Assembly (NCBI GenBank): GCA_009691855.1
Contig: SIAI01000013.1
Span: 30,281 to 94,280, forward strand
Origin: Planctomycetota bacterium
GTDB lineage: Bacteria; Planctomycetota; UBA1135; GCA-002686595
Direction: 5' to 3'
Length of the DNA: 64,000 bases
Positions 45,317 through 50,807 of the stretch are shown in pieces; position 1 is the first letter of the stretch; each line of letters opens with the position of its first letter. The notes below the pieces were generated by a model that was not told where the DNA came from, did not search any database, and saw only the letters and a program-made list of their open reading frames with translations. Position numbers and translations under genes: made by a program.

Positions 45317-46834
45317 ATGACTCCTGGAGAGAAGCGACTCGTCGCGCTGCTCGCGAGCTCGACCCTGACGCTGCTCGCGGCGTGCGTGTTCCTCGTGCTG
45401 CGGCTGCGCGCCACTCCGGTCGCCTTCGACACGAACGCCGCGCTGGCCGACCCGGAGCTACGCAACGCCGTCGTGCAGCGCCTGGCCACGCAGGCGACCG
45501 CCATCTGGGACTCGCACAACGATCCCGAGGTCGGGCGCATGCTCCAACCCAACCTGCGCGAGGTGCAGGCCACCGGAGTGCCGACGAGCACGAACGTCTA
45601 CGGCCTGCGCGAGCGTCCCTTCGAGCTACCCAAGCCGCCCGGCACGCTGCGCGTCGTGATCCTGGGCGATTCGTTCGTGCAGGGCTTCGGCGTGCTGGAG
45701 GCGCAGCGCATGGGCGTCTTGCTCGAACGCTATCTCACCGAGCACGCCACCGGCTTCAGCGGCCGCATCGAGTGCCTGCACATCGGCGTCGGCGGCTGGA
45801 ACGCCGTCAACGAGTGTGCCTACCTGCGGCGCATGCTGAGCGAGCTGGCGCCCGACCTCGTGCTGCACGTGCTCGTCACCAACGACCTCGACGACGAGTG
45901 CGGCGTGCGCGGCTTCGGCGCGCTGTCGGCCTTCGCGCCGCTCGTCAGCGCACGCACCGACGCCATGGTGTACCACGCGTATCCCACGCGCTTCTCCTCG
46001 CCGCTGAACACGAACTACCTGCTCGAGGCGGCCGATTTCGAGAGTCGCCAGCGCTACGAAGAGCTCGCCGAGGCGCTCGGACGCCTCGCGCTCTGCGTGC
46101 GCCGCTCGGGAGCACGCTACGTGGCCGTTGCGCAATGGTCCGGGATGAGCGCGCGCCTGTGGAGCTTCCTCGAGCCCCATCTCCCGCGCGAGGAGTACGC
46201 CCCGCTTCCGACGCGCCTGATGACAGACCCCGACCTGCGCCTGGGTCCGACCGACGCGCACTGGAGCGTGACCGGACACGAACAGGTCGCGCGCCTGTTC
46301 TTCGCGCTGATCCGCGGGCGCGGGCTGCTGCCCCAGCTCGCGCTCACGCCCTGGCCGGAGGTCGAGGAAACGGCGCTGAAAGAGCTCGAGGCGGCCTGGC
46401 GGGAGGCGACCCGCAAGCAGCGCAAGCCGGTGTGGATGCCCGTGAAGGAGGCCGTGTCACGCCTCGAGCCGGCGCACTTCACCGACCTCGAGTGGCGCCA
46501 CGTCTACACCGGCCTCGACGATCAGGCGCGGGTCTCGCCCTTCGCCTCGTTCTACCTGGCGCCGGGCGAGCTGCAGTACCTGGTGCTGCGCGGGCGCGCC
46601 TTCGCGCGGCCCGAGCTCGCCGGAGCGCGCGTCCAGGTCAGCGTCGAGGGCCAGCCGCTGGGCGAGCACGAACTCGTGCCGGGCGAGCCCTTCGAGCTGC
46701 GCCTGCCGCTGCCGGCCGACCTGCGCCGCGACGGCGGCATCAACGTGCGCCTGGAGACGAACGATTACGTCTACGCCAACGCCGACCGGCAGCACTGCGT
46801 GAGCTTCCAGCTCGACCTGCTGGCGCTGGAGTGA
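45317..46834 (+). CDS. Membrane-anchored SGNH hydrolase-like protein with C-terminal accessory domain
   Basis: 'LRVVILGDSFVQGFGVLEAQRMGVLLE'; 'DAHWSVTGHEQVARLF'. Confidence 0.78.
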   Translation: MTPGEKRLVALLASSTLTLLAACVFLVLRLRATPVAFDTNAALADPELRNAVVQRLATQATAIWDSHNDPEVGRMLQPNLREVQATGVPTSTNVYGLRERPFELPKPPGTLRVVILGDSFVQGFGVLEAQRMGVLLERYLTEHATGFSGRIECLHIGVGGWNAVNECAYLRRMLSELAPDLVLHVLVTNDLDDECGVRGFGALSAFAPLVSARTDAMVYHAYPTRFSSPLNTNYLLEAADFESRQRYEELAEALGRLALCVRRSGARYVAVAQWSGMSARLWSFLEPHLPREEYAPLPTRLMTDPDLRLGPTDAHWSVTGHEQVARLFFALIRGRGLLPQLALTPWPEVEETALKELEAAWREATRKQRKPVWMPVKEAVSRLEPAHFTDLEWRHVYTGLDDQARVSPFASFYLAPGELQYLVLRGRAFARPELAGARVQVSVEGQPLGEHELVPGEPFELRLPLPADLRRDGGINVRLETNDYVYANADRQHCVSFQLDLLALE

Positions 46835-46939: not shown

Positions 46940-46976
46940 CCGTGATCCGGCCCGACGTCACTCTTCCGGATCACGG
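46940..46976. terminator. Hairpin at the 3' ends of convergent genes
   Basis: ccgtgatccgg ... ccggatcacgg perfect 11-bp arms with 15-nt loop; overlaps end of the minus-strand CDS. Confidence 0.55.
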
Positions 46977-48298
46977 GCCTGCAGCCGGACCTGGAAGGCC
47001 TCGTACAGCGTCACGGAATCCACGGCCCCCAGGAGAGAAGCACCCTCGTACAGCTTGCGCACGTTGTGACGGACGACATCGAAAGCGTCCGCGCGCACGT
47101 TCTCGAGCACCCAGGCGTCCTGCTGCTCGTGGCTCACCGCGATCACTCCGCCCGGGCTGACCGCCGGGTCGGGGATCCAGTCGATCTCCTCCTTGCGCAG
47201 GACCTCCAGCACTTCCTCGGCGTCGCCACGGATGCGCGGGTCGTCGACGAGCTGCGCGTTGCCCGCCCCGACGATCAGGCGCAGGGCCGTGCCGCCTTTC
47301 GCCTTCGCGGCGGCCAGGAAGCCGGCCGTCGAGGTCTTCCCGTCGACCGCGTGCTTGAGCCAGTCCGTGCGACCCCCATTCGGGCTGATGATCTGGACCT
47401 CCTCGAGCTGCAAGGCTCTGCGCTCGTCGGTGAGGATGCGGCCCTCTTTCGCGAGCCGCACCAGCAGCTCGGTGTGATAGCGATCGATCGCCGCGCCGCG
47501 CTCGAGGTTCTGGCGCACGAACTCGGGGATCCGGTCCGGAGCCAGGGCCGGATCGAAGACGAAGCAGCGCGCCCCGCGCCGCGCGAGGAAGCCCAGCAGC
47601 GGCAGACCGACCTTGCCCGCACCGATCACGAGCACGCTGAGACCCTCCAGGATCGGCGGGCACTCCGGCGAGAGGACCTCGAGCGCGCTGAGCTCCGGAC
47701 CGCGCACGAGTCTGGTGGTGAGAGCCGCCTGGTAGATGGCGGCGAGCACTCCGATCGCAGTCGGATCTCCGGTGTCCACGGCGCAACCCAGCCCGACCGT
47801 GAAGTGCGTGCTGCGCGCGATCCAGCGCAGCTCGCCCTTGCCGACGCCCTGGTCCTCGGAGGCGAAGTACTCCCCCCGCAGGTGCTCCACCAGCAGTCCG
47901 TGGCAGATCAGGCGCGCAGGCGTGAGCTCCTGGCCGGGCCCGCTCGTGAGGATCACTCCCTTGCCTCCTTGCCAACCGAAGGCGGTCCTGCGGTTCGCCC
48001 AGCGTGGATCCTGGATGCGCAGCTCGCGTTCCGCTCTCTGCAGGAGGCGGTTTTTGGAGAGCATGGCTTGGGCCAGCCGCGAGGATTCGGATTCGGCCTG
48101 GCGAACGCCTCGCTCGGGATCGGCAGACGGCTCCTGGATCCAACGCGTTCCACCCAGCGCCGGCCAGTCGGAACGGCTGGGGCTCCGGCAAACAGCCACG
48201 CAAGAGAAGGCGCCTGCGGCGCTGCTCCTCCCTTCCCACAGCTCGACCCCAGGAGCGTCGGGCAACTCGATCGGGCCGGAGATCTGGAAGTCCTTCAT
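46958..48298 (-). CDS. Divergent Glu/Leu/Phe/Val (ELFV) dehydrogenase-like protein
   Basis: 'LGGTRWI', 'MLSKN', 'GGKGVI', 'SEDQG', 'GDPTAIGVL', Rossmann 'VLVIGAGKVGLPLLGFLARRGARCFVFDP', 'LIVGAGNAQLVDD...IDWIPDPAVSPGGVI'. Confidence 0.75.
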   Translation of the reverse strand: MKDFQISGPIELPDAPGVELWEGRSSAAGAFSCVAVCRSPSRSDWPALGGTRWIQEPSADPERGVRQAESESSRLAQAMLSKNRLLQRAERELRIQDPRWANRRTAFGWQGGKGVILTSGPGQELTPARLICHGLLVEHLRGEYFASEDQGVGKGELRWIARSTHFTVGLGCAVDTGDPTAIGVLAAIYQAALTTRLVRGPELSALEVLSPECPPILEGLSVLVIGAGKVGLPLLGFLARRGARCFVFDPALAPDRIPEFVRQNLERGAAIDRYHTELLVRLAKEGRILTDERRALQLEEVQIISPNGGRTDWLKHAVDGKTSTAGFLAAAKAKGGTALRLIVGAGNAQLVDDPRIRGDAEEVLEVLRKEEIDWIPDPAVSPGGVIAVSHEQQDAWVLENVRADAFDVVRHNVRKLYEGASLLGAVDSVTLYEAFQVRLQARDPEE

Positions 48299-48314
48299 GG
48301 TGGGTTCCCGATGG

Positions 48315-49610
48315 TCATGCGCCTGCAGGAGAAGTCGGTGATTGCGCCTCGGAGTCACCCGCGCGCTCGGCCACCCGAGACGAGGGAGGAGCTACGAGGC
48401 CCTTCGCGCGGGGCGCGGGTTGGACCTCTCGCACGGGCTCGGCGGCCGTAGGCGCCTGCAGGTCGGCCACCAGTTTCACCAGCCGCGGGAAGTACTCCGA
48501 CAAGCGGGGCGAGACTTCATCGACCCAGCGGAGCTCGAAGTAGTCGGAGCACTGGCGGGCGACCTTCTCGCTGCAAAGGAAGCAGATGGCCTCGATCGCC
48601 GGATCCATCGGCGCGAGGGGATCCCGGTCGTAGCGCACGAGGTTGACGGTCTTCGCCGCATCGCTCATCCAGACGCCGAAATTCCCGCTCCAACCGTTGC
48701 CGATGGCGTCCTGGAAGTCCTTGGGCGCGTTCGCGAAGTGGTTCGCATAATCGTCGCGGCCTACCTCGAGGACCCGCGCCTGCATGCGCTCGCCGGCCGC
48801 GTCGCTCGCGGCCTGATAGCGACGGAAAAGCAACTCGAGAGCGCCAGCGAGGCCCGGCTCGGACCGCAGCACGCTCATGTCGGGCACGATGAACAGCCGC
48901 TTCACGCGAAACCCGCTGCTCTTCGCGGCCTTGACCTGCTTGTTCAGGTATGCGCTCGAGCCCTGCTGGAAGCCGAGGTGATCCGCCGACCAGACGACCG
49001 CGTTGGTGATCGTCTTGAACTCGCCGTTTGCGCCCATCAGGGAATCGAGCATCTCGCTCCAGCGGCTGGAGAACTGATTGGCCGGGGAACGAACCTCCAG
49101 CTGATAGCGGTGTTCCTCCGCCAGGAGCCTCATTGCCTCCTCCGTGTCGTGCAGGAGGCGCTGGGCAAAGAGGATCTCGATGTCCTTGTCGAAGCCGGTC
49201 CCGGCGGCGTGCTTGACGACGCCGGCGTAGTGATCGATCACGCGCGTCATGCTGCCGTGTGCCCTCAGATTGGCCTGACCCGTGTCGAACAGCCGCCCCA
49301 TCCTCTCCTCGTACCGCGACAGGACGTCGTCTCGGTCATGCTCGTAACGGCTGATCAGAGCGGCGACCTCCTCCTTCGAACTGGCAAAACCCTCCTTGCG
49401 ATCCTGGTCGCTCAGCAGGATTCGCTTCTCGATCTCGATCTGCTGCCCGAGGACGCCGCCGAGCCCGGCCAAGAGGATGGACCACAGGGCAAGCTGCCAG
49501 CCGTCCAGGTTCGTCTTGTTCAGGAGCAGCTCCAAGATGAGCAGGACCACGGGCGGGGCGACGACCAGTGCGATTCTGAGGCTGATCTCGGCGGTGGATC
49601 GGCGAGTCAT
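48315..49610 (-). CDS. Membrane protein with coiled-coil and putative degenerate PLD-like cytosolic domain
   Basis: Two N-terminal hydrophobic helices; central coiled coil; C-terminal 'YLNKQVKAAKSSGFRVKRLFIVPD...NFGVWMSDAAKTVNLVRYD...'; 16-nt gap to the downstream dehydrogenase. Confidence 0.65.
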   Translation of the reverse strand: MTRRSTAEISLRIALVVAPPVVLLILELLLNKTNLDGWQLALWSILLAGLGGVLGQQIEIEKRILLSDQDRKEGFASSKEEVAALISRYEHDRDDVLSRYEERMGRLFDTGQANLRAHGSMTRVIDHYAGVVKHAAGTGFDKDIEILFAQRLLHDTEEAMRLLAEEHRYQLEVRSPANQFSSRWSEMLDSLMGANGEFKTITNAVVWSADHLGFQQGSSAYLNKQVKAAKSSGFRVKRLFIVPDMSVLRSEPGLAGALELLFRRYQAASDAAGERMQARVLEVGRDDYANHFANAPKDFQDAIGNGWSGNFGVWMSDAAKTVNLVRYDRDPLAPMDPAIEAICFLCSEKVARQCSDYFELRWVDEVSPRLSEYFPRLVKLVADLQAPTAAEPVREVQPAPRAKGLVAPPSSRVAERAGDSEAQSPTSPAGA

Positions 49611-49860
49611 GGGGCGCTGGGGGCAGAACCGTTGATGGGGCAGGTCTTCTTCATGCAAGGGGAACGGCGCATCGCGCCGGCCACCGCCATCCATCTATCC
49701 CAGTCAAGCCGAGGAAACGCAGTTGTTCCCTTCCGTGGGTCTTCGCGGGTGGAGAACATCCCGTCCGATGGCGGCGGGCTATTCTGGGCATGGCCATGGG
49801 TCCTTCGCGCTCGATCGGATCCCGAGCTGCTCGCGCACCAAGCCGTCGCGCGGCGCCTAG

Positions 49861-50807
49861 CGCGGCTCGCCGTGCTCGCGCTGGCGCTGCGGGCGGGCGG
49901 CGGGCACGCGACCGAGGTGGGAGCTCGAACCGGTCGAGCTCGTCCTGCAGGACGTTGCGCTCTCTATCGACGGCGTGCTGCTCGACCGAACCGGCGGACT
50001 CGCCGCGGGCTGGCGCATGGCGCTCTTGGACGGCACGCCGGCCTACTCGGACGACCACCGGCCCTTCACGACCAAAGAGCTCGCCTCGGGCGCGAGCTCA
50101 CACCTCGAACTCGGCGCCGACGGCGCCTTCTCCTTCCGCGGTCTGAAGGAGGGACGCGCGTATCGAGTGCGGGGCTGGAACCAGAAGACCCTCGAACAGG
50201 ACGTGAGTGAGCAGATGCTGGCTGGCACGCGCGGCTACGTGCGGCGCGTCCCGGACGAGCCCTGGCGTGCGCGCGTCGAGGGAGTCGTGGTCGGCCTGGA
50301 CGGATTCCCTCTGGCGGACGTCACCTGTCGCTTGAGCATGAACGAGTACAAGAGCGAGAGCGGAACGTGGATGACCTCGGGGCAAACGTGGTGACCGACG
50401 GGCTCGGACACTTCGCCTTCGTCGACGTGCCCCCGGTCGAGCTCTTCATCCGCTTCAAGGGCCTCGGCACCGACCAGCAGCTCGTTCTGCCGACCGATGA
50501 TCCCGGCTGCGGGCTGCGCGTGGAGCTGGTGCGCAGCGGCACGTTCGTGCTGGAACGCGACGGCGCCGGCCGGGCCGCGGACACGCTGCGCGTCCTCGAC
50601 GGCGACGAGCAACGCCTGCCGATCGAACTCGACCGCGGTCCGGGACGCACGAGCAACCCGCGCGACGTGCCCGTGCCGGCCTCCGGCGAGGTGCGCGGAC
50701 GGGTCAGCGAGCTCGCTCGTTGGCTCGTGCTCTACGCGGGCGAGCGCGAGCTCGGCCGGCTGCCGCTCGTCGTGCGCTTCGGCGAGGACGCGCGCCTGCG
50801 CTGGTGA
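49861..50807 (+). pseudogene. Frameshifted secreted protein with carboxypeptidase-regulatory-like domain
   Basis: Frame ending '...GVVVGLDGFPLADVTCRLSMNEYKSESGTWMTSGQTW*' continues in another frame as 'VVTDGLGHFAFVDVPPVELFIRFKG...RLRW*'. Confidence 0.65.

Follow-up and report, generated by a model that had tools for sequence, protein, structure and literature searches.

A divergent ELFV-type amino-acid dehydrogenase gene and an orphan membrane-protein gene closely spaced on one strand in a Planctomycetota bacterium

Among described enzymes, the closest counterparts of the dehydrogenase studied here are LeuDH, PheDH, and TrpDH/ScyB of the ELFV (Glu/Leu/Phe/Val) dehydrogenase superfamily, with which it shares the overall alignment, the GGTR motif, two lysines, the catalytic Asp, a GxGxxG fold with its Asp, and a PD....GG loop. 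In contrast to these enzymes, it carries about 90 extra internal residues, including a 19-residue insert between the two lysines, has a Ser for a near-invariant Asn, falls below the curated ScyB cut-off, has no ELFV match in Pfam, and is only 24–29% identical to each of 22 LeuDH-type relatives (these are 32–79% identical among themselves). The gene lies beside one for a membrane-anchored protein that had been likened to degenerate phospholipase D (PLD)-like sensors, and searches of the literature returned no such pair of dehydrogenase and membrane protein. Here, we describe the two genes, their distribution, and the explanations that may account for their proximity.

Both genes are on the minus strand of the window (the whole 64,000-nt stretch of DNA that was analysed), where the 431-aa membrane gene (49610–48315) is upstream of the 446-aa dehydrogenase gene (48298–46958) and 16 nt separate the stop codon of the former from the ATG of the latter. 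Two long plus-strand ORFs (47066–48451 and 48342–50210) overlie the pair, but codon-position GC (GC3 of 0.86 and 0.85 for the two minus-strand genes) and codon usage prefer the minus-strand frames. Hence, the same-strand pair with 16-nt spacing that the first-pass annotation described is borne out by ORF coordinates, codon-position GC, and codon usage alike. The nearest flanking genes, a GDSL-family gene (45317–46834) and an ORF at 49975, are on the opposite (plus) strand, and because the same-strand gap is short and the neighbours are opposed, a single transcript is suggested. The two-gene operon claimed earlier is thus plausible from the gap, though it gains no comparative support, as no ortholog was found; promoter-like or terminator-like sites above chance were not seen. 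Overall, the two genes are probably co-transcribed, while their joint function stays at the level of a fair hypothesis.

The membership of the 446-aa protein in the ELFV superfamily, also proposed in the first-pass annotation, is carried by several searches. A profile of the 22 LeuDH-type relatives (20 encoded in genomes of the phylum, that of the window included, and two on plasmids), built without the window dehydrogenase, matched it at E = 5e-25 (73.9 bits), whereas 500 shuffles produced no entry at E ≤ 10, and the alignment covers its full length. Solved leucine dehydrogenases matched at E = 4.3e-6 (7vid) and weaker, and the NCBIfam match to ScyB was weak (3.7e-9; 36 bits against a curated cut-off of 600 bits), such a cut-off being the mark of a named subfamily, not of the superfamily. 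Judged from its sequence, we regard the assignment of this divergent protein to the ELFV superfamily as solid. The same genome encodes two ordinary ELFV proteins elsewhere, one glutamate-dehydrogenase-like and one LeuDH-like, so the window gene would be a third, divergent, and extra specialised copy.

Aligned with the 22 relatives, the protein retains the motifs that had been read from it by eye. These include the GGTR motif (48143–48154; its G, G, and R invariant in all 22), SKN (48050–48058), aligned within ExxRLAxAMxxKN and equivalent to LeuDH Lys68 (K in 22/22), GGKG (47957–47968), equivalent to the catalytic Lys80 (K in 22/22), and SEDQG (47846–47860), equivalent to the catalytic Asp115 (D in 22/22). 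The dinucleotide-binding loop GAGKVG (47606–47623) has invariant glycines, the Asp of FVFD (residue 249) occupies a position that is D in 19 and E in three relatives, the Thr150 equivalent is kept, and GAGNAQL (47249–47269) corresponds to the GxANNQL motif of LeuDH, its N being invariant. Other positions are changed: the first Gly of GGGK is replaced by Gln, SPY is absent before the TA.GV motif, and PDPAVSPGG (47147–47173) stands in place of PDYVINAGG, which puts a Ser where 21 of the relatives have Asn and one (L013) likewise has Ser. As this NAGG-loop position varies at low frequency, its Asn does not decide ELFV membership. Separately, five of the relatives (L002, L005, L007, L011, and L013) make up a second ELFV subgroup with an [NS][AS]GALI-type loop instead of NAGG[IV]I.

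The insertion of ~15–20 aa noted earlier between the lysine motifs measures 19 alignment columns, within the region RLLQRAERELRIQDPRWANRR (47987–48049), and occurs in none of the 22 relatives. It is one of seven or so internal insertions that make up the extra length; the long terminal extensions that had also been described are not there, the termini being normal. As neither lysine nor the catalytic Asp has been lost, the dehydrogenase is likely still catalytic; the changed NAGG loop and the insertions would fit a protein without catalysis equally well. If it is active, the ELFV superfamily gains a version with an insertion between its active-site lysines, which would be useful for asking how the active-site pocket tolerates change.

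The membrane protein begins with a hydrophobic hairpin (49440–49580) in a Kyte-Doolittle (KD) scan, made of a strong segment at about residues 6–33 (KD up to 2.4) and a second, weaker one at about residues 38–57 (KD < 1.6). Of the two transmembrane helices claimed for it, the first is thus well marked and the second is weak, so that the hairpin as a whole is likely but not strong. The charges around it, by inspection, make it most likely that the N-terminus and the soluble part are cytoplasmic. A charged helical and probably coiled-coil stretch follows (49257–49439), modelled as helix at low confidence, and then a C-terminal domain of unassigned fold (48456–49028). Single-sequence AF2 prediction gave a mean pLDDT of 38 for the whole protein and 34 for the C-terminal part, and searches of family libraries, the PDB, and the genome sets returned no relative.

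It is this C-terminal domain that had been compared with PLD-like proteins, and the comparison is unsupported. Its likeness to PLDc_2 (PF13091) lies only in the pattern of strands and helices, judged by eye, whereas the protein has no PLD-family match in Pfam, NCBIfam, PADLOC, PHROGs, or the PDB and no HKD motif (HxKxxxxD), although degenerate PLD-like members can also be without that motif. Against a PLDc_2 alignment drawn from related genomes, hhalign scored the domain at 15.6, inside the range of 200 shuffles (median 12.6, 95% 17.3, maximum 24.0), in a low-power comparison that sets one sequence against the profile of one family; the local alignment spans 39 columns at 13% identity.

Orthologs were sought in whole genomes of 61 relatives, 154 members of the order and class, and 367 members of another class, and across the phylum in 392 genomes for the dehydrogenase and 343 for the membrane protein, and neither gene had an ortholog in any of these sets. 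The one same-genus genome (77% complete) has neither gene; it carries an ortholog of the GDSL-family gene (63% identity) and then other genes than those in the window. In tblastn searches of plasmids and phages, the membrane protein had no match, and the dehydrogenase had ordinary ELFV matches only, e.g., an Ensifer plasmid match at 84% coverage (L023) that is an ordinary LeuDH-type gene and not an ortholog. Weak C-terminal matches (E of 0.002–1) were likewise rejected as homologs, with scores that are chance-like and a best match that reads through two TAG codons. Pattern scans of viral and GTDB sequences with both proteins, including motif-steered queries with purpose-made variant rows, returned nothing, and since such scans reach close relatives only, distant homologs may exist in other phyla. 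With no ortholog of either protein found, a conserved partnership cannot be shown, and none of the other searched genomes was found to have the pair, which leaves a joint role as a guess, if a plausible one.

How, then, might the pair be explained? We tentatively propose, at somewhat less than even confidence, a lineage-restricted transcription unit that joins an ELFV dehydrogenase of non-standard substrate to a membrane-hairpin protein that may tether or regulate it. Both genes would be carried on one transcript, the membrane gene first and the dehydrogenase second. The dehydrogenase would probably be a soluble NAD-dependent enzyme that catalyses the oxidative deamination of an L-amino acid or imino acid, or the reverse, with the usual Lys/Lys/Asp chemistry and a non-standard substrate, the latter being proposed from the changes to the substrate loop and its greater length; the Asn-to-Ser change and the insertions fall around the active-site loops. 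The upstream product would be anchored by its hairpin with the soluble part most likely in the cytoplasm, and contact between the two proteins, physical or functional, is a guess only. We give equal confidence to the rival view that the two are unrelated neighbours, a diverged paralog of the ELFV family having come to sit 16 nt from the gene of an orphan membrane protein by coincidence; the failure to find an ortholog of either gene in the sampled genomes and the different gene content of the same-genus genome beyond the GDSL-family ortholog would fit such a chance arrangement, but the short same-strand gap and the opposite-strand neighbours suggest one transcript.

Other readings give the pair a more specific role. 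Loss of catalysis, leaving a dehydrogenase-like protein that binds NAD or an amino acid as a sensor for the membrane partner, would accommodate the Asn-to-Ser change in the NAGG loop, the SPY missing before TA.GV, and the several internal insertions, but we consider it unlikely, for the protein retains its two lysines together with the catalytic Asp, and the Ser recurs in a relative. Quite unlikely, in our view, is a new kind of module tethered to the membrane, where a partner of new fold acts with a specialised ELFV dehydrogenase to make or sense an amino acid or the NAD(H) state. The signalling, stress, or conflict role floated in the first-pass annotation drew no positive evidence, and a signalling or defence role of the pair is speculation. 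A module for defence or conflict would cast the dehydrogenase as the effector or signal enzyme and its partner as a degenerate PLD-like membrane sensor, and it could draw on the patchy distribution and on a membrane protein adjoining an enzyme; nevertheless, PADLOC gave no match, the PLD assignment is unsupported, the annotated neighbours include no defence or mobility gene, and the 64,000 nt hold no tRNA gene, which together make such a module very unlikely. For the tentatively proposed transcription unit, the two-gene module matters only if a protein-protein link is shown, and nothing here shows one.

The wider neighbourhood is ordinary. On one flank, the plus strand encodes a GH63/MGH1-like glycoside hydrolase, a sulfatase, and the GDSL-type protein; on the other, an alpha/beta hydrolase and a DUF1571 protein are encoded on the plus strand and an S9 peptidase on the minus strand. 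The GDSL-type family is multicopy in this genome and has many copies in relatives. Two plus-strand ORFs beyond the membrane gene (49975–50394 and 50367–50807), neither with a Pfam match, overlap each other and by eye look like one gene with a frameshift near 50370, which a sequencing error or a broken gene would explain.
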